Virus record (IMG/VR): IMGVR_UViG_3300034418_001490
Span: 1 to 25,176 of that record
Length of the DNA stretch: 25,176 nt
Strand: one strand, 5' to 3'
From: a virus
Part shown: one piece after another, positions 2,976-12,229 of the stretch
How the letters are laid out: each line of letters starts with the position of its first letter
How positions within the stretch are numbered: the stretch's first letter is position 1
Notes under the pieces: generated by a model
Database searches by the model: none
Told to the model about the DNA's origin: nothing
The model's input: the letters and a program-made list of their open reading frames with translations, nothing else
Position numbers and translations under genes: made by a program

Positions 2976-4628
2976 ATGGACAAACCCACCGCCAAATTTC
3001 TACGACACACACCATGCGAATTATGCGGGTCATCTGATGCAAACGCATTGTATGATGATGGCAGTACATGGTGTTTTTCTTGTAACACATACGGTAATGA
3101 GGACAAAATGGAAGCCACACAATCACCAATTAAAACTGTGTACACATCACAACTTACATCGGGGCAGGTGACCGGCATTCCTGACCGTAAAATCTCTGCA
3201 GATACATGTAAGGCATTCGGTGTCACAACTCTTGTAAATAATGGTGCAATTTTTAAACACATCTATCCTTATCACGACACATCAGGTTCACAGATTGCTA
3301 ATAAAATTCGTACAGTTCAAAACAAACAGTTCTTCGCTGAAGGTAACCTGAAGGATGCTGTACTTTTTGGCCGAAAGAACTTCTCAGCTAAAGGTAAATA
3401 TATTACCATTACTGAGGGTGAGCTTGATGCTATGGCAGCATATCAAATGTTTGGTAGCAAGTGGCCCTGTGTATCTGTAAAGTCTTCAAGCTCTGCCGTA
3501 TCAGACTGCAAAAATAGTTTTGATTATCTTAATTCTTTTGAAAATATTATTTTATGTTTTGATAATGATCCTGCTGGGAATAAAGCAGCTGAGAAAGTTG
3601 CTGGATTATTTGAGCCACACAAATGTAAGATCGTTAAGCTTAGTCAGTTTAAGGATGCTTCTGATTATCTACGGACTGGTAATCAAGAAAGCTTTGTTCG
3701 TACATGGTGGGCTGCAGAACCTTATACACCTGCAGGTATTATTAATCTTAATGAACTTGGAAATAGTTTATATGACGAAGAGTTCTTTGAAACAATTTCA
3801 TATCCTTGGTCTGGATTAAACAAAAAGATTTATGGTATGCGTACAGGAGAATTGGTTACGTTCACTTCAGGTTCAGGTATGGGTAAGAGCAGCATCATTA
3901 GAGAGCTAATGCACCATATCATGAAGACTTCTACAGATAATATCGGTGTACTTGCTCTGGAAGAAAGCATTCGTAACACTGCACTGAACATCATGTCTGT
4001 TGAGGCAAGTCAAAGATTATATATTAAAGAAGTCCGAGATACATTTCCAATTGAGCAGCTTCAAAAATGGCAGGATGCTACCGTAGGTACGGGCAGGTTC
4101 TTTGCCTTTGATCACTTCGGCTCTATCTCTAACGACGAGATACTAAATCGGGTTCGCTTTATGGCGAAGGCTCTTGATTGTAAATGGATTATTCTTGATC
4201 ACTTGTCTATCCTTGTGTCCGGTCAGGAAGAGGGAGACGAACGTCGATCTATTGATATTCTAATGACAAAGCTGCGGTCTCTCGTAGAGGAGACTGGGGT
4301 CGGTTTACTGCTGGTGTCCCACCTACGTCGAGCATCAGGTGATAAGGGCCATGAGGATGGTCGAGAGGTATCTCTTGCACATCTGAGGGGTAGCCAAAGC
4401 ATTGCACACCTAAGCGATGGTGTCATAGCTCTGGAAAGAAACCAACAGGAAGAAGACGAGACACTGGCTAACACTACCATTGTTCGCATACTAAAGAATC
4501 GTTATACAGGTGACACAGGTATCGCAACATACTTGTATTATGATAAGGATAGTGGTAGAATGTCTGAGATATCAAACCCGTTTGATGTAAACGAAGACAC
4601 TGAAGAGGAGCAAGGTTTTGACAGCTAG
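2976..4628 (+). CDS. T7 gp4-like primase-helicase
   Basis: A 550-residue bifunctional replication protein, close to T7 gp4 (566 residues). Residues 14-36 form the zinc-binding site (C14, C17, C33, C36) that reads priming sites. The Toprim primase core follows with TEGELDAM (Glu 147) and the CFDNDPAG acidic motif near residue 195. The C-terminal half is a DnaB/RecA-type ring helicase with Walker A SGSGMGKSS around residue 300, a Walker B-like WIILDHLS, and SHLRR and LRGSQSIAHLSD motifs. It unwinds DNA 5'-3' and makes RNA primers for the polymerase encoded two genes later. A strong AAGGAGG lies just upstream, right after the stem-loop. The C terminus is acidic and ends EEEQGFDS, like gp4, whose acidic tail contacts the polymerase. 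Confidence 0.93.
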   Translation: MDKPTAKFLRHTPCELCGSSDANALYDDGSTWCFSCNTYGNEDKMEATQSPIKTVYTSQLTSGQVTGIPDRKISADTCKAFGVTTLVNNGAIFKHIYPYHDTSGSQIANKIRTVQNKQFFAEGNLKDAVLFGRKNFSAKGKYITITEGELDAMAAYQMFGSKWPCVSVKSSSSAVSDCKNSFDYLNSFENIILCFDNDPAGNKAAEKVAGLFEPHKCKIVKLSQFKDASDYLRTGNQESFVRTWWAAEPYTPAGIINLNELGNSLYDEEFFETISYPWSGLNKKIYGMRTGELVTFTSGSGMGKSSIIRELMHHIMKTSTDNIGVLALEESIRNTALNIMSVEASQRLYIKEVRDTFPIEQLQKWQDATVGTGRFFAFDHFGSISNDEILNRVRFMAKALDCKWIILDHLSILVSGQEEGDERRSIDILMTKLRSLVEETGVGLLLVSHLRRASGDKGHEDGREVSLAHLRGSQSIAHLSDGVIALERNQQEEDETLANTTIVRILKNRYTGDTGIATYLYYDKDSGRMSEISNPFDVNEDTEEEQGFDS

Positions 4629-6736: not shown

Positions 6737-6765
6737 TTGACATTTAAAAAGAGTTATGGTATAAG
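6737..6765 (+). promoter_or_regulatory. sigma70-type promoter before the winged-helix/SSB/exonuclease block
   Basis: TTGACA at 6737-6742, a 17-base spacer, then TATAAG at 6760-6765: one mismatch from the full consensus. It lies in the 71-base gap after the polymerase stop, and the next gene starts 37 bases after the -10. This implies host RNA polymerase transcribes the middle block. No phage RNA polymerase gene is in the window. Confidence 0.78.
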
Positions 6766-7025: not shown

Positions 7026-7511
7026 ATGATTGATCGTAAGTACAATATTATTTCTGGCACTGCCTATTGGGCTTCTGTCGTAGCACCTAACACCACATTT
7101 GATAGTGATGGTGTATGGGAAGTTAATGTCTGTAATCTAGATGAGGATGCAAAAGCTACTCTAGAGGCAGACGGCATCACCATTCGTAACAAGGGTGATG
7201 AAAAAGGAGATTACGTCCAGATCAAGCGTAAGGTCCGGCGTAATGATGGTGGGGTAAACACTGCACCAAAGGTGGTTGATTCCAATAATTCCCCCATGCA
7301 TGATACCTTTATTGGAAACGGCTCTCTTGTTAATGTTAAGTACCGTTCTTATGATTGGAAGTTCGGTAATAAGAAGGGAGTTGGTGCAGACCTAGTAGCT
7401 CTACAAGTAGTTGACTTGGTAGAGTATCAACAAGCAGGAGGCTCTGATTTTACCCCAGTGTCTGGCGGATACACTTCTTCTGAAGATGATATCCCATTCC
7501 CCACTAACTAA
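7026..7511 (+). CDS. single-stranded DNA-binding protein (T7 gp2.5-like role)
   Basis: A 161-residue protein starting at ATG 7026, eight bases after AAGGAG; a longer reading from 6939 overlaps the previous gene and is less likely. The body looks like an OB fold, with many beta strands (SGTAYWASVV, WEVNVCNL, YVQIKRKV, LVNVKYRSYDW, VALQVVDLVEY). The tail is Gly/Ser-rich, then acidic and ends EDDIPFPTN. That acidic DDIPF tip resembles bacterial SSB tips that dock partner proteins, though three residues follow it here. The position after polymerase and before the exonuclease matches gp2.5 in T7-like replication modules. Confidence 0.8.
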   Translation: MIDRKYNIISGTAYWASVVAPNTTFDSDGVWEVNVCNLDEDAKATLEADGITIRNKGDEKGDYVQIKRKVRRNDGGVNTAPKVVDSNNSPMHDTFIGNGSLVNVKYRSYDWKFGNKKGVGADLVALQVVDLVEYQQAGGSDFTPVSGGYTSSEDDIPFPTN

Positions 7512-7518
7512 TGGAAAT

Positions 7519-7544
7519 GGGCAGGGCTTTTCGGAGTCCTGCCC
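7519..7544 (+). promoter_or_regulatory. GC-rich stem-loop with TTCG loop before the exonuclease start
   Basis: GGGCAGG (7519-7525) pairs with CCTGCCC (7538-7544). Four inner pairs including two G-U close a TTCG tetraloop (7530-7533). It sits between the SSB stop and the ATG at 7553. No T run follows, so it is not a standard terminator; mRNA processing or 3'-end protection of ssb mRNA is possible. Its presence argues against the in-frame ATG at 7511 as the exonuclease start. Confidence 0.7.
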
Positions 7545-7552
7545 TACCCATC

Positions 7553-8410
7553 ATGATAAAACTTAATACACTTATAGAAGATATCTATAACCTTTTTTCA
7601 GAGGATTCAGAAAGTAAAAAATCAAAAGACGAAATAGAGAAGGCAGCTAAAAAGGCTGGACGAAACATTGCCCACATCTTGGTGTCCTCACTTGAGGAAA
7701 GAAAAGAAAAAAGACCGTCCACTCTCAGGCTTTCTAATATCGGCAGACCGAAACGTCAGTTATGGTATCAACTAAAAGAAACAAAAGGAGAGACTACTCT
7801 TAAACCAAATGATTATATAAAATTTTTATATGGTCATATACTCGAAGAGATGGTATTGTTTCTGGCATTCGCAGCTGGTCATAGAGTTACTGATCAGCAG
7901 AAGCGAGTCACAATCGGCGGTGTTGTCGGACACAAGGATTGTAAGATTGACGATGTTACAGTAGATGTAAAGAGTGCCTCTTCCTATGCCTTTAAAAAGT
8001 TTAAGGAAGGCACACTAGCAGACGATGATCCCTTTGGATATATCAGTCAACTCTCTGCATATGCTAAGGCAGGTAAAGAAAGTTCCGCTGCTTTTTTAGC
8101 TATAGATAAACAGAGTGGTGAGCTTGCACTGCTACCTTTACATCAGATGGAGTTTGATGACGTTGAAACTACGATTAAAAACATTAGACAATCCTTGGAA
8201 AACTCTGAACCACCAGATAGGTGCTATGAAGATATTCCTTTTGGCAAGTCTGGTAATCGTCAGCTTTCCATTGGTTGTCGCTATTGTGATTATAAGTCTA
8301 CTTGTTGGTCTGACTCTAACAACGGTAAAGGTCTTCGTACTTTTAATTATGCATCCGGTCCTGTATACCTTACACAAACTACAACAGTTCCGAATGTCGA
8401 AGAAGTGTAA
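7553..8410 (+). CDS. PD-(D/E)xK exonuclease with a C-terminal cysteine cluster
   Basis: The 285-residue product (299 if translation begins at 7511) has an SNIGRPKRQLWY segment, then the nuclease core with GHKDCKIDD and V137-D138-V139-K140, then a QLSAYAKAG helix carrying the family's Gln/Tyr. The C terminus has C224 and then C242-x2-C245-x5-C251, the spacing seen at Fe-S clusters of Cas4/AddB-type nucleases; a metal cluster is likely but inferred. In T7-like phages the exonuclease (gp6) removes primers, degrades host DNA and acts in recombination. It follows SSB and a stem-loop; neither possible start has a good ribosome site. The stop overlaps the next gene by one base (TAATG). Confidence 0.8.
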   Translation: MIKLNTLIEDIYNLFSEDSESKKSKDEIEKAAKKAGRNIAHILVSSLEERKEKRPSTLRLSNIGRPKRQLWYQLKETKGETTLKPNDYIKFLYGHILEEMVLFLAFAAGHRVTDQQKRVTIGGVVGHKDCKIDDVTVDVKSASSYAFKKFKEGTLADDDPFGYISQLSAYAKAGKESSAAFLAIDKQSGELALLPLHQMEFDDVETTIKNIRQSLENSEPPDRCYEDIPFGKSGNRQLSIGCRYCDYKSTCWSDSNNGKGLRTFNYASGPVYLTQTTTVPNVEEV

Positions 8411-8742
8411 TGAAAACTCAGAGTGCCAAAGCAAAGGGTCGAAGATTTCAGCAGTGGGTGAGAGACAAGCTGATTGAAATACTTTCTATAAATGAAGAGG
8501 ACATAGAGAGTAGGAGTATGGGAGCTTCTGGTGAGGATTTAATCATGGCACAGATGGCTCGCCAGAAGTTTCCCTTCTCCATTGAATGTAAGAATCAAGA
8601 AAAACTAAATGTATGGGAAGCGTACAATCAAGCTGATACAAACTCTGGTAAGTACGAACCTATCTTATTTATAAAAAAGAATAACAAGAAACCATTGGTA
8701 GTTTTAGATGCGGAATATTTTATTAAACTACATAGAAAATAG
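8410..8742 (+). CDS. small PD-(D/E)xK (resolvase-like) endonuclease
   Basis: A 110-residue basic protein with an N-terminal helix (KAKGRRFQQWVRDKL), then GASGEDLIMAQ (E42/D43), FSIECKNQ (E59-x-K61) and WEAYNQA with a conserved-type Gln. This is the E...D...ExK...Q layout of small Holliday-junction-resolvase-like or VRR-NUC nucleases. It is the third PD-(D/E)xK candidate in the window. It directly follows the exonuclease with a TAATG overlap, which suggests work on the same DNA intermediates. Substrate specificity cannot be read off; the fold class is fairly sure. Confidence 0.72.
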   Translation: MKTQSAKAKGRRFQQWVRDKLIEILSINEEDIESRSMGASGEDLIMAQMARQKFPFSIECKNQEKLNVWEAYNQADTNSGKYEPILFIKKNNKKPLVVLDAEYFIKLHRK

Positions 8743-9061
8743 TGAGATACTTTATGTCTATGATCCCATTGAGGAATCCTCTAATTCATATGAGGAACTC
8801 TTCAATGGGGTTATTATGCAAGCTTTAATAGACATTTGTACAGAAGAAGAGTATACTACTAAACATCACCAAGGAGCTAAGGAAGAAGCTATGGCTTGGT
8901 TCTTCTCCACCATTGTGTCTGTTGTGGATAATTTTGAAATGGTATGTGACCTAGCAGGTATCGACTCTGAAAAGGTACGGAGTTTTGCGGAGAGAATAAC
9001 ACTATCAGAAAACAAAGAAGTCTTACGACAACACATGTTGAAGAGCTTTCATGACAAGTAG
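8708..9061 (+). CDS. conserved hypothetical phage protein, 117 or 81 aa
   Basis: The conserved-looking part runs from VIMQALIDICTEEEYTT through AWFFSTIVSVVDNFEMVCDLAGIDSEKVRSFAE, all helical and acidic; the D-N-F-x-x-V-C-x-x-A-G-x-x-x-x-x-V-R element is one I associate with a common phage family of unknown function. Two starts are possible. ATG 8708 overlaps the nuclease gene by 35 bases with no ribosome site. ATG 8816 follows six bases after the stem-loop at 8765-8809 and would remove 36 residues that look less conserved. I give the long form but consider 8816 equally likely. Confidence 0.6.
   Translation: MRNILLNYIENSEILYVYDPIEESSNSYEELFNGVIMQALIDICTEEEYTTKHHQGAKEEAMAWFFSTIVSVVDNFEMVCDLAGIDSEKVRSFAERITLSENKEVLRQHMLKSFHDK
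8765..8809 (+). promoter_or_regulatory. stem-loop before the in-frame ATG at 8816
   Basis: CCCATTGAGGA (8765-8775) pairs with TCTTCAATGGG (8799-8809) over 11 pairs with one G-U; the 23-base loop includes GAGGAATCCTC partial symmetry. It lies just after the stop of the small nuclease gene and immediately before ATG 8816. No T tract follows. It either is coding sequence of the longer reading or marks an intergenic control or processing site. Confidence 0.55.
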
Positions 9062-9332
9062 AAGAGAATCCTTTGCTCAATATATTTTAAGACGGATGGA
9101 GGAAGAAGATTTGAAAGATGCCACAGACAAACAGGTTGGTGGTCAACACTATAAAGATTGTCCGATACAGCCGGTAGAATATATTGTTAAGAATGAGCTT
9201 GATTTTTTAGAAGGTAATGTAGTAAAATATATTACTCGACATAGAAAGAAAGGCTCTGGCCCAGAGGATATCCGAAAGGTTATTCATTATGCAGAGCTTA
9301 TTTTAGAATTACATTACAACGAAAAACCATAG
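9051..9332 (+). CDS. DUF3310 family protein
   Basis: A 93-residue protein whose central part matches DUF3310 clearly: VGGQHYKDCPIQPVEYI, then LDFLEGNVVKYITRHRKKG, then a DIRKVIHYAELILEL helix. The family is widespread in phages and often sits next to nucleotide-metabolism genes; T7 gp1.7, a nucleotide kinase, is related in my recollection, but no catalytic activity should be assumed for this short form. The gene lies directly before the ribonucleotide reductase. The first about 25 residues are charged and not part of the domain. The ATG overlaps the previous stop by 11 bases. Confidence 0.85.
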   Translation: MTSRRESFAQYILRRMEEEDLKDATDKQVGGQHYKDCPIQPVEYIVKNELDFLEGNVVKYITRHRKKGSGPEDIRKVIHYAELILELHYNEKP

Positions 9333-9340
9333 GAGCCACC

Positions 9341-11017
9341 ATGTTTAAATCAAATAAGAACCCACAATTTAGATCAAAGTTTTCTGAAGATATTTTCTAC
9401 ACAAAGTATGCCCATGCCGGTGCTGAAACAATGCATGAACTAGCATCTACTTTAGTAGAGGATGTCTGTCAATCATACATGTCCAAGTCAGAAAAGGACG
9501 AGCTTGTTAGCCACATTGCAGACCTACGGTTTATTCCCGGCGGTCGTTATCTTTACTATGCTGGTAGAGACAAGAAGTTTTTTAATAACTGTTATCTTTT
9601 GAAGTGTGAGGAAGATACAAGAGAGGACTGGGCTAACCTTTCTTGGAAGGCGGAGTCATGCCTAATGACTGGTGGTGGCATTGGGTCTGACTATTCTGTG
9701 TATAGGGCAGAGGGTAAGACGCTTGGAGGAACTGGTGGCATTTCAAGCGGCCCTCTGCCCAAGATGCAGATGATTAACGAGATTGGTCGTAGAGTTATGC
9801 AGGGTGGTAGTCGTAGGTCCGCTATTTATGCCAGCCTTAATTGGAAGCATGAAGATATCTATAAGTTTCTTGGATCAAAGAATTGGAAAGATATGCCGGT
9901 AGGCACAACAGGACAGACATTGTTTGATATTAAACAAGATGATTTTAATTTTCCTGCTCCACTAGACATGACAAATATAAGCGTTAACTACGACACAGAA
10001 TGGTTGCTAAATTATTGGAACACGGGAGAACTAGATGATGTCTTTATTACAAATGTACGTCAAGCTTTATCAACAGCAGAGCCGGGATTTAGTTTCAACT
10101 TCTTTGACAAAGAGAATGAGACACTACGAAATGCCTGCACAGAAGTCACATCCGAAGATGATTCGGACGTATGTAATCTGGGTAGTCTTAACTTTGCTCG
10201 TATTGATGGCGTCGAGCAGCTTCGTTCTGTAGTTGAACTAGCTACAAAGTTTCTCATTTGTGGAACCTTACGGGCGCAGCTGCCTTATGATAAGGTCTAT
10301 AAAGTGAGAGAGAAGAACCGACGCTTAGGCTTAGGGTTGATGGGATTGCATGAATGGTTAATTCAAAGAGGCAGTCGGTATGAGACAACGGAAGAGATGC
10401 ATCGTTGGTTAAAGATTTATGAATCAGAATCAGATAAAGTTTCTAATGAATTCTCCGATCTATTGGGAATCTCTCGTCCAGTTGCAAAGAGAGCAGTAGC
10501 ACCAACAGGAACCATCGGCATTATTGCTGGTACTTCTACAGGTGTAGAGCCTATCTTTGCTGTAGCGTACAAGCGTAGGTATCTCAAGAATCGTAGGTGG
10601 CACTATCAGTATGTGGTTGACAGTGCTGCTCAAGAGATGATTGAATTGTATGGAGCTAACCCAGAGAATATTGAATCAGCTATGGATTTGGCTACGGATT
10701 ATGAACGTAGGCTTTCCTTTCAAGCAAACATTCAAGAGTATGTAGATATGTCCATCTCTAGTACAATTAATCTTCCAGCTTGGGGTACAAAAGAAAATAA
10801 TGAAGACCTTGTTGTTCCTTTTGCTAACACTCTTGCTAAGTATGCACATCGACTGAGAGGCTTCACTTGTTTCCCTGATGGTAGTCGAGGAGGCCAGCCT
10901 CTAACCGTCGTACCCTACAAGGAAGCTGTTGAGAAACTTGGCGAAGAGTTTGAAGAGAACATTCAGACACATGACATCTGTGAGATAGCAGGTACAGGAG
11001 GAGTCTGTGGTGTATGA
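9341..11017 (+). CDS. ribonucleotide reductase, class II (adenosylcobalamin) type
   Basis: A 558-residue catalytic subunit that reduces ribonucleotides to deoxyribonucleotides. Active-site pieces: C84 (NNCYLL) and C278 (CNLGSLN) as the redox pair; N264-A-C266-T-E268 with the radical Cys; PTGTIGIIAGTSTGVEP as the phosphate-binding loop; and a C-terminal C547...C556 pair for re-reduction. No N-terminal ATP cone is seen. The late barrel strand reads GFTCFPDGSRGGQPL, lacking the Tyr-Tyr pair class I enzymes need to receive a radical from NrdB, and no nrdB follows. These point to B12-dependent class II. Caution: the P-SSP7 cyanophage enzyme was once misassigned to class II. GGAG precedes the ATG. 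Confidence 0.88.
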   Translation: MFKSNKNPQFRSKFSEDIFYTKYAHAGAETMHELASTLVEDVCQSYMSKSEKDELVSHIADLRFIPGGRYLYYAGRDKKFFNNCYLLKCEEDTREDWANLSWKAESCLMTGGGIGSDYSVYRAEGKTLGGTGGISSGPLPKMQMINEIGRRVMQGGSRRSAIYASLNWKHEDIYKFLGSKNWKDMPVGTTGQTLFDIKQDDFNFPAPLDMTNISVNYDTEWLLNYWNTGELDDVFITNVRQALSTAEPGFSFNFFDKENETLRNACTEVTSEDDSDVCNLGSLNFARIDGVEQLRSVVELATKFLICGTLRAQLPYDKVYKVREKNRRLGLGLMGLHEWLIQRGSRYETTEEMHRWLKIYESESDKVSNEFSDLLGISRPVAKRAVAPTGTIGIIAGTSTGVEPIFAVAYKRRYLKNRRWHYQYVVDSAAQEMIELYGANPENIESAMDLATDYERRLSFQANIQEYVDMSISSTINLPAWGTKENNEDLVVPFANTLAKYAHRLRGFTCFPDGSRGGQPLTVVPYKEAVEKLGEEFEENIQTHDICEIAGTGGVCGV

Positions 11018-11460
11018 AAACAGAAGATATCAAAAAATATAAAAGAGAATACATGAGAGCGTATCGCTCAAAACCTGAGAATAAAGAACGTCTAAGACAA
11101 CAACAAATCGGTTACAGCAGTAAACGGGACACTACAATTGCTGGTAAACTGCATAGAGTAAAAACAAGGAGTAAAAAAATTAATGTTGAGTTTAATTTAA
11201 CGAAAGAATACTTAGAAAGTATCTATCCGACTGACGGTATGTGTCCATTGCTAAACATAGCATTAAATTGGCATAGCCCTTCAAGACATGATAGCACTCC
11301 ATCAATAGACAGAATTGATAATAATAAAGGATACATAAAAGGAAATGTACAATGGGTAAGTTGGAGAGCTAACCTACTTAAAAATGATGCAACTCTAGAA
11401 GAGCTTCTTATGCTTGCTCAAAACTACAAAAAGATATATGACAAAGTTATACTCTCGTAG
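11014..11460 (+). CDS. HNH-type (His-Me finger) endonuclease
   Basis: A 148-residue basic protein. The N-terminal half is a Lys/Arg-rich helix (KKYKREYMRAYRSK). The C-terminal half carries PSIDRIDNNKGYIKGNVQWVSWRAN (in pieces: D99-R100, G106-Y, N111, N120, K123) and KNDATLEEL, a form of HNH fold common in free-standing phage endonucleases. Only one Cys is present near the start of the fold, so the structural zinc site of some relatives is absent. It sits between RNR and a tRNA, a typical landing place for homing endonucleases. Its start overlaps the RNR stop (ATGA), and its stop codon TAG is made by bases 8-10 of the tRNA. Confidence 0.78.
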   Translation: MKTEDIKKYKREYMRAYRSKPENKERLRQQQIGYSSKRDTTIAGKLHRVKTRSKKINVEFNLTKEYLESIYPTDGMCPLLNIALNWHSPSRHDSTPSIDRIDNNKGYIKGNVQWVSWRANLLKNDATLEELLMLAQNYKKIYDKVILS

Positions 11461-11526
11461 CTCAATGGATAGAGCAACAGACTTCTAATCTGTAGGTTGC
11501 AGGTTCGAGTCCTGCCGAGAGTGCCA
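11451..11526 (+). tRNA. tRNA-Arg (anticodon UCU), CCA encoded
   Basis: Folds fully. Acceptor ACTCTCG pairs with CGAGAGT; D arm GCTC/GAGC; anticodon stem ACAGA/TCTGT with loop CTTCTAA, giving anticodon TCT; variable AGGTT; T arm GCAGG/CCTGC with TTCGAGT. The discriminator is G, followed by encoded CCA. It reads AGA (and AGG) Arg codons, which are frequent in the phage genes here, so it likely compensates for host codon bias. The first ten bases overlap the HNH gene. Confidence 0.96.
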
Positions 11527-11534
11527 AAAAAAGC

Positions 11535-11563
11535 TTGACAAAAATAAAAAAATATGTTATATA
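11535..11563 (+). promoter_or_regulatory. sigma70-type promoter before hsp20
   Basis: TTGACA (11535-11540), a 17-base very A-rich spacer, then TATATA (11558-11563); an overlapping TATACT gives a 19-base spacing alternative. It starts nine bases after the tRNA CCA end. It probably drives Hsp20 and the genes after it, up to the small terminase at least in part. Confidence 0.75.
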
Positions 11564-11567
11564 CTAA

Positions 11568-11593
11568 GCGGGAATGCCATAATGGGTTCCCGC
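11568..11593 (+). promoter_or_regulatory. leader stem-loop of the hsp20 mRNA
   Basis: GCGGGAA (11568-11574) pairs with TTCCCGC (11587-11593) around a 12-base loop. It begins about where transcription from the promoter would start, so the hsp20 mRNA would carry a 5'-terminal hairpin, a known way to protect mRNA. It does not cover the AAAAGGAG ribosome site, so a classic RNA thermometer is not obvious. An operator is the other option. Confidence 0.55.
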
Positions 11594-11618
11594 AATATCT
11601 TGCTAAAAGGAGATAACA

Positions 11619-12050
11619 ATGTTTACAGAACACATGTATAGGCATGCGATTGGTTTAGATAATCTATTTAAAAAGTTAACGGTAATGCAAGGAAATTCAG
11701 CTAAGGGAAATTTTCCTCCTCATAGAGTGTCAGATATTGAGGATAAGACATACTACTTAGAGTTTGCTGTAGCGGGTTATTCTAAAGAAGATTTAGAAGT
11801 TGTACTAGAAGACTCAGAAACTCTTGTTGTTCAGTCATCAGGTTCTAGCACCCAAAAAACAGGCGATAATACAAATGGTGAGTTGTATACTAGCTACGAT
11901 GGTATTGCTTCCAGAGGATTTAAAAAAGAATTTAAATTAAATCCTTATTTAAAAGTAAAAAATGTTACACTGAAGGATGGGTTACTAACTATTGAGTTAG
12001 AAAAAACTTTACCAGAAGAAAAGAAATTAAAAGTCCTAACAATTAACTAG
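11619..12050 (+). CDS. small heat shock protein Hsp20 (alpha-crystallin family)
   Basis: A 143-residue chaperone of the IbpA type. The N-terminal arm (residues 1-40) precedes the alpha-crystallin domain, which shows YYLEFAVAGYSKEDLEVVLED, then LVVQSSG, GIASRGFKKEFKLNPYLKV and the late GLLTIELEK strand. The C terminus ends KLKVLTIN; an I/V-x-I/V-like tail (VLTI) could mediate oligomer contacts. It holds unfolding proteins during infection. Hsp20 genes are common in marine cyanophages and also occur in other T7- and T4-like marine phages. It has its own promoter, a leader hairpin and AAAAGGAG seven bases before the ATG, which suggests strong separate expression. Confidence 0.92.
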   Translation: MFTEHMYRHAIGLDNLFKKLTVMQGNSAKGNFPPHRVSDIEDKTYYLEFAVAGYSKEDLEVVLEDSETLVVQSSGSSTQKTGDNTNGELYTSYDGIASRGFKKEFKLNPYLKVKNVTLKDGLLTIELEKTLPEEKKLKVLTIN

Positions 12051-12058
12051 AAAGGAAA

Positions 12059-12082
12059 GGGGAGAGCAGAAATGTTCTCCCC
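12059..12082 (+). promoter_or_regulatory. stem-loop with embedded 10-codon frame after hsp20
   Basis: GGGGAGAGC (12059-12067) pairs with GTTCTCCCC (12074-12082), nine pairs with one G-U and a six-base loop. The 5' arm is itself a Shine-Dalgarno-like run. The ATG at 12072 begins in the loop and opens a ten-codon frame (MFSPLSWLKQ, stop at 12104) crossing the next gene's start at 12089. No T tract follows. It may control read-through or translation from hsp20 into the next gene. Confidence 0.6.
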
Positions 12083-12088
12083 ACTCTC

Positions 12089-12229
12089 ATGGCTAAAGCA
12101 GTAAATAAAAAAGCATTAGAAATCCATACTACAAAAAAGAAAACCAGTATCGGTATGTCGCCCTTATCAAGACCAACAAACAAATCTAAACGGATGGCAT
12201 GGAAAAAATATAGGGGACAGGGAAAGTGA
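12089..12229 (+). CDS. small basic conserved phage protein, 46 aa
   Basis: A 46-residue, very basic protein beginning MAKAVNKKALE. Its centre has KKTSIGMSPLSRPTNKSKR, and it ends KKYRGQGK. From memory, the S-I-G-x-S-x-x-(S/T)-R-P-x-N-K-x-K-R and K-K-Y-R-G-Q-G pieces recur in small proteins near structural genes of T7-like marine phages; the function is unknown, and nucleic-acid or capsid binding is possible given the charge. No ribosome site is visible; a strong stem-loop ends seven bases upstream. Its stop overlaps the GTG start of the next gene. Confidence 0.65.
   Translation: MAKAVNKKALEIHTTKKKTSIGMSPLSRPTNKSKRMAWKKYRGQGK

Follow-up and report, generated by a model that had tools for sequence, protein, structure and literature searches.

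Hairpins between the Shine-Dalgarno sequence and the start codon after the ssb and hsp20 genes of marine phages: probable split ribosome-binding sites

Introduction

In phage T4, the initiation regions of genes 38 and 25 carry a hairpin that brings the Shine-Dalgarno sequence (SD) from 22 to 5 nt and from 27 to 11 nt of the AUG, respectively, and mutations that destabilise the hairpins of these split sites lower initiation (PMC3014915). In the accessible literature, split ribosome-binding sites have so far been an oddity of these two T4 genes. Hairpins have been described in other roles as well. The one at mobE of phage Aeh1, as cited in the T4 work, sequesters the ribosome-binding site and reduces initiation (PMC3014915), and that of galE protects an mRNA 3' end (PMC9239205). 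Literature searches found no relevant account of ribosome-binding sites that enclose a terminator, nor of terminators in HMO-2011-type phages.

Here, we describe two junctions in a viral genome, one after ssb and one after hsp20, whose layout resembles that of the T4 sites. In the T4 record, gene 38 reads AAGGAG-AGGGGCTTCGGCCCT-TCTAAAT-ATG, which is nearly the plan of the first of these junctions.

Results

The window analysed is the whole IMG/VR record IMGVR_UViG_3300034418_001490 (25,176 bases). Its genes run in the order primase-helicase, DNA polymerase A, Gp2.5-like SSB, Cas4-like exonuclease, RusA-like resolvase, DUF3310 and ribonucleotide reductase, with long genes on the other strand beyond these. 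A similar order is found in cultured marine phages, e.g., Roseobacter phage CRP-13 and Puniceispirillum phage HMO-2011; judged from cultured relatives, the hosts of this phage group are likely marine Alphaproteobacteria. Against the models of Rfam 15, a tRNA was the sole match in the window at gathering score, H1 and H3 (see below) matching none of its families. Between the ribonucleotide reductase gene and tRNA-Arg(tct) lies an HNH/endonuclease-VII-like gene (11014-11460), possibly a homing endonuclease. Ahead of the primase-helicase gene, orf 2767-2934 ends in a separate hairpin (2922-2954), which is followed by a normal SD and whose counterpart at L106 (5250-5300) is longer (20 bp).

The preliminary description had singled out three hairpins, here H1, H2 and H3, each ending shortly before a start codon that lacks a ribosome site, and had suggested a phage-specific initiation arrangement, overlooked by gene callers, in which structure and position are shared and not a copied repeat. 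For H1 and H3, much of this survives. Among simple hairpins, with a loop of 10 or less and no more than one interruption, none in the window is as stable as these two on either strand. Their two occurrences of a hairpin of -16 or lower at 4-13 nt before a start compare with 0 of 300 sets in which the 60-nt regions preceding 28 start positions (1652 among them is not a real ATG) were dinucleotide-shuffled. Conservation, covariation and position uphold a structural initiation arrangement at these two of the three sites, and their stems are indeed unrelated in sequence between clades. It is also correct that no SD lies between hairpin and ATG; an SD-like stretch does, however, occur 5' of each hairpin, against the preceding stop codon (Table 1). 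Specificity to the window's phage group does not hold, with T4 genes 38 and 25 as precedents. A normal SD (e.g., AAAGGAGA or GAAGGAGGA) precedes many of the window's other starts; that of ssb is preceded by TAAGGAGA.

Two of the three starts had been flagged as uncertain. That of the exonuclease gene is 7553, because relatives keep this ATG, lose the in-frame ATG at 7511 (TAAAGG, TAGTGG) and vary the length of the hairpin out of frame; a start at 7511 is rejected. The start at 12089 is confirmed by conservation of the 46-aa protein. The start at 8816 fared differently: this position is TTG or CTG in relatives, the frame from 8708 is conserved there with substitutions mostly in third codon positions, and the H2 stem weakens to between -9.5 and -11.6, which together rule out an 8816 start and remove H2 from the set. 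In the window, H2 folds strongly (MFE -22.4), with an internal loop; no other of the 1060 45-nt segments sampled was as stable, and it is not conserved. This fold inside a coding sequence is probably a product of chance.

Table 1. Features of the two hairpin junctions and of the H2 region (positions in the window)
Feature	Position	Strand	Details
Sigma-70-like promoter, TTGACA-N17-TATAAG	6737..6765	+	Heads orf 6803 and ssb
ssb, Gp2.5-like ssDNA-binding protein	7026..7511	+	phrog_112 match 1e-14; conserved; stop TAA 7509-7511
Distal SD-like stretch of exonuclease gene, TGGAAAT, 5' of H1	7512..7518	+	aSD energy -3.3 (window clade)
H1, 11-bp hairpin with UUCG loop, between SD and start codon	7519..7544	+	dG -19.5; GGGCAGGGCTT-TTCG-GAGTCCTGCCC; ends 8 nt before ATG 7553
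Spacer TACCCATC, H1 to exonuclease start	7545..7552	+	No SD, no T run
Cas4-like exonuclease gene, true start 7553	7553..8410	+	phrog_1990 match 6e-43; start conserved
Conserved reading frame (MRNILLNYIEN...) containing H2 (8765-8809)	8708..9061	+	Changes mostly in third codon positions; 8816 is not a start
Sigma-70-like promoter, TTGACA-N17-TATATA	11535..11563	+	Heads hsp20; conserved in relatives
hsp20, small heat-shock protein	11619..12050	+	PF00011 2.8e-9; stop TAG 12048-12050
Distal SD of 46-aa gene, AAAGGAAA, 5' of H3	12051..12058	+	aSD energy -4.9
H3, 10-bp hairpin between SD and start codon	12059..12082	+	dG -17.6; GGGGAGAGCA-GAAA-TGTTCTCCCC; ends 6 nt before ATG 12089
Spacer ACTCTC, H3 to 46-aa gene start	12083..12088	+	No SD, no T tract
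46-aa gene (phrog_516, function unknown), true start 12089	12089..12229	+	Conserved 46-aa protein

A scan of viral contigs, with the products of the exonuclease, ssb, hsp20 and 46-aa genes as queries, yielded 65 ssb-exonuclease junctions, 47 of them distinct. A hairpin is present in every one of the 47 (median dG -17); its stem measures 8-15 bp and shows no resemblance from one clade to another. Compared with dinucleotide shuffles of the same junctions, the natural sequences fold more stably (median z -4.4), and in 43 junctions 7-13 nt separate the end of the GC core from the ATG. Within one clade, 4 of 12 pairs have changed on both sides, with 99% of cells paired. At an aSD energy threshold of -4 or better, an SD was called 5' of the hairpin in 42/47 junctions and between hairpin and ATG in a single one (L225, spacing 23 nt), while a clear distal SD was not found in 5/47; after clustering at 80% identity, 21 of 23 groups retained a distal SD. 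Counterparts of the window's distal SD in relatives read AAAGGA, TGGAG or AAAGGAG. The window's own copy is weak, at -3.3, and could be base-paired to the 3' flank (AUGG/CCAU), and a GGAGT in the 3' arm of H1, approximately 15 nt before ATG 7553, is paired. Over 40 junctions, the linear SD-AUG spacing of 33-61 nt (median 41) compares with a median of 10 nt once the hairpin is collapsed; the collapsed values in the window are about 10 nt (H1) and about 7 nt (H3). Co-variation of the two spacer halves (stem to SD and stem to ATG) was not found (r = 0.23). A run of at least four T residues follows the stem in 34/47 junctions and is absent from the window's clade. Exonuclease homologues encoded behind another gene mostly lack such a hairpin, and several have a canonical SD (e.g., CATAGAAAGGAGTAGCATAATG at L060). 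At L298 (Pelagibacter phage HTVC103P), a 13-bp terminator-like hairpin with T6 follows the ssb stop at 3453 of the locus and directly precedes the ATG of an unannotated ORF of approximately 30 aa.

At the hsp20 junction, same-clade homologues of the 46-aa gene show changes on both sides in 5 of the 10 H3 pairs with 100% of cells paired, a covariation score reached by 0/500 shuffles, and the distal SDs of relatives read AAAGGAA, ACAGGAG or AAGAAGG. A hairpin close before the next start, with hsp20 upstream, recurs at L210, L111 and L340 and, between hsp20 and gp38, in the cultured Pelagibacter phage HTVC115P (AAAAGGTA-GGGGGTGTCAAAGCCCCC-TATTAAA-ATG), as well as in Pelagibacter phage HTVC008M, where the distal SD is weak; for most other hsp20 genes in the set, the hairpin lies further off and a normal SD stands behind it. 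A general motif at many starts was not found, the window displaying two junctions only (after ssb and after hsp20). Of the 195 starts annotated in the cultured marine relatives HTVC115P, CRP-13 and HMO-2011, a single one fits the pattern, again after hsp20; in 2.1 Mb of fetched sequence, a set chosen for these junctions, the same two account for nearly every clean SD-hairpin-ATG case.

Separately, terminator-like hairpins after hsp20 in other marine phages (L318, L319, L335, L341, L347, L361, L365, L369, L371 and L375) carry TTGACA as a -35 box within the loop or close to it, and a -10-like TATAAT or TATAGT follows approximately 17 nt on, such that the terminator overlaps the next promoter. 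On the minus strand of the G033 contig (L134/L135; 17441-17396), an 18-bp hairpin directly precedes TTTTTT-ATG of a 258-aa gene; the 3' arm of this hairpin closes with CAGGAG, placing an SD inside the stem.

When both junction types were pooled, the position of the SD followed the distance of the hairpin from the start codon. For hairpins within 13 nt of the ATG, the SD was 5' of the hairpin in 48/55 cases and 3' of it in 0/55, whereas for hairpins at least 15 nt away, these numbers were 4/38 and 26/38 (Fisher P of about 5e-14, which overstates the evidence owing to shared ancestry). For hsp20 junctions alone, a distal SD was present in 9/12 near versus 1/34 far cases (P of 2e-6, likewise overstated by shared ancestry). 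A split site would lead one to expect such a shift of the SD with hairpin distance; neither a bare terminator nor a post-stop purine bias would.

The window contains exactly two promoters of the form TTGACA-N17-TATAWD (0.03 expected), one heading the ssb unit, which ends at H1, and the other heading the hsp20 unit, which ends at H3. In a mismatch-tolerant scan, similar promoters were found before ssb and hsp20 in several relatives. The promoters suggest strong expression of both genes. Because the only two such promoters head units ending at H1 and H3, the hairpins probably also form or protect mRNA 3' ends. The combination of a GC-rich stem with a T tract that marks an intrinsic terminator was found at neither H1 nor H3, as evident from their spacers (Table 1). 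Right after the hsp20 promoter, a hairpin at 11568-11593 (GCGGGAATGCC...GGTTCCCGC) is kept in close relatives, and the hsp20 mRNA may be bracketed by one 5' and one 3' hairpin.

Discussion

A layout like that of a split site is well supported at these junctions by predicted structure, conservation, covariation, position, SD placement and promoter-like sequences. The SD lies beyond the normal linear distance with none at the normal distance (that of the H1 copy being weak), a stable hairpin stands between SD and AUG, and the looped-out spacing, with a median of 10 nt, is within the 5-11 nt of T4. We consider it likely that H1 and H3 each form part of a split (accommodated) ribosome-binding site of the type known from genes 38 and 25 of T4, with use of the distal SD and 3'-end formation being what we infer from the sequences.

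The proposed arrangement would operate as follows. The SD of the downstream gene sits just after the stop codon, 5' of the hairpin, with the start codon 6-8 nt past it. On an mRNA running through the junction, the folded hairpin would be looped out, shortening the SD-to-AUG distance from approximately 30-40 nt to approximately 7-10 nt and allowing one 30S subunit to hold both elements. Lineages that have a T-tract behind the stem should also use the hairpin to terminate transcription; in the window's clade, which has no T-tract, it would more likely protect the mRNA 3' end, and its loss would also break translation of the next gene. Since stop codon and SD are adjacent at both H1 and H3, translational coupling could contribute to translation of the next gene.

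A simpler account would be that the hairpins are only terminators or 3'-exonuclease barriers of ssb and hsp20, with the next gene translated through coupling or termination-reinitiation and the SD-like purines unused. The T runs behind the stem at 34 of the 47 ssb-exonuclease junctions agree with it, as do the separate promoter before each unit, the short stop-to-start distance after collapse and the precedent of hairpins as mRNA 3'-end protectors such as at galE (PMC9239205). However, H1, H3 and all relatives of the hsp20-46-aa gene junction keep the stem without a T run, and the SD is placed 5' of the hairpin only if there is no room behind it, a rule that a bare terminator does not predict; we regard this account as unlikely. 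The reverse regulatory logic would have the SD sequestered by an extended hairpin and the next gene repressed for as long as neither a terminating ribosome nor a protein has opened the structure. It draws on the MFE folds of H1 and H3, in which part of the SD pairs with the 3' flank. This pairing does not behave as a conserved feature: across 36 distinct flank pairs, the natural pairing is weaker than random (198/200 re-matchings at least as stable), and in the window's clade, the natural flank combinations are unremarkable (32/120 permutations at least as stable). Conserved sequestration by the 3' flank is unsupported by these tests, the SD was not found to be conserved within the stem, and we judge repression of this kind to be improbable.

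RNase III requires roughly two helical turns in most cases. Stems of 8-15 bp are shorter than this, and no sequence is conserved between clades; processing by RNase III or another endonuclease, as between the early genes of T7, is highly improbable in spite of the intercistronic position of the hairpins within a T7-like replication gene order. Chance hairpins do arise, as H2 exemplifies, but as an explanation of H1 and H3, coincidence is contradicted by the comparative data (0/300 shuffled sets, covariation and recurrence in 23 clusters), leaving it a negligible probability.

Returning to the split-site reading, the association with promoters suggests a possible history: the hairpins would have begun as mRNA 3' ends of two promoter-headed genes and would now also be needed for the ribosome site of the next gene. 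More tentatively, and with somewhat more doubt than confidence, we propose a widespread device of marine phages, with one hairpin serving both at the 3' end of a promoter-driven gene (ssb, hsp20) and as the structural spacer of the next gene's ribosome-binding site. Transcripts with 3' ends at the hairpin would keep the SD and lose the AUG, such that one element would set the ratio of the two products; the stem could outlive its T-tract, with translation of the next gene depending on the stem.

The junctions amount to a comparatively rich variant of the T4-type split site, being conserved, recurrent and available in dozens of natural variants, with a built-in natural control in that the SD stands behind the hairpin when room allows. 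The rule by which the 30S subunit accommodates a hairpin thereby becomes testable by comparison. Gene callers and ribosome-binding-site models that read only the last 20 nt would miss such genes or assign them wrong starts.

Among known systems, T4 genes 38 and 25 are alike in having an SD that is too distant linearly, a hairpin in between and a functional spacing after loop-out, with a UUCG loop shared by the gene 38 hairpin and H1. Unlike in T4, the predicted stem here follows promoter-headed ssb and hsp20 genes, is terminator-like in many lineages, has unrelated sequences between clades and recurs across many diverse marine phages. With intrinsic (Rho-independent) terminators, the junctions share a GC-rich stem directly after a gene end and, for most ssb-exonuclease junctions, a T tract; H1 and H3 differ in having no T tract, with the SD before the stem and the next start 6-8 nt past it. 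The galE hairpin is likewise near an intercistronic boundary and could hold exonucleases and define an upstream mRNA 3' end, but as described (PMC9239205), it is not between the SD and AUG of a next gene, and the 3' ends proposed here are predicted. Hairpins of homing endonuclease genes such as mobE, as cited in the T4 work, likewise occupy translation starts of phage genes. They sequester the ribosome-binding site and reduce initiation, whereas at the junctions described here the SD lies mainly outside, 5' of the stem.
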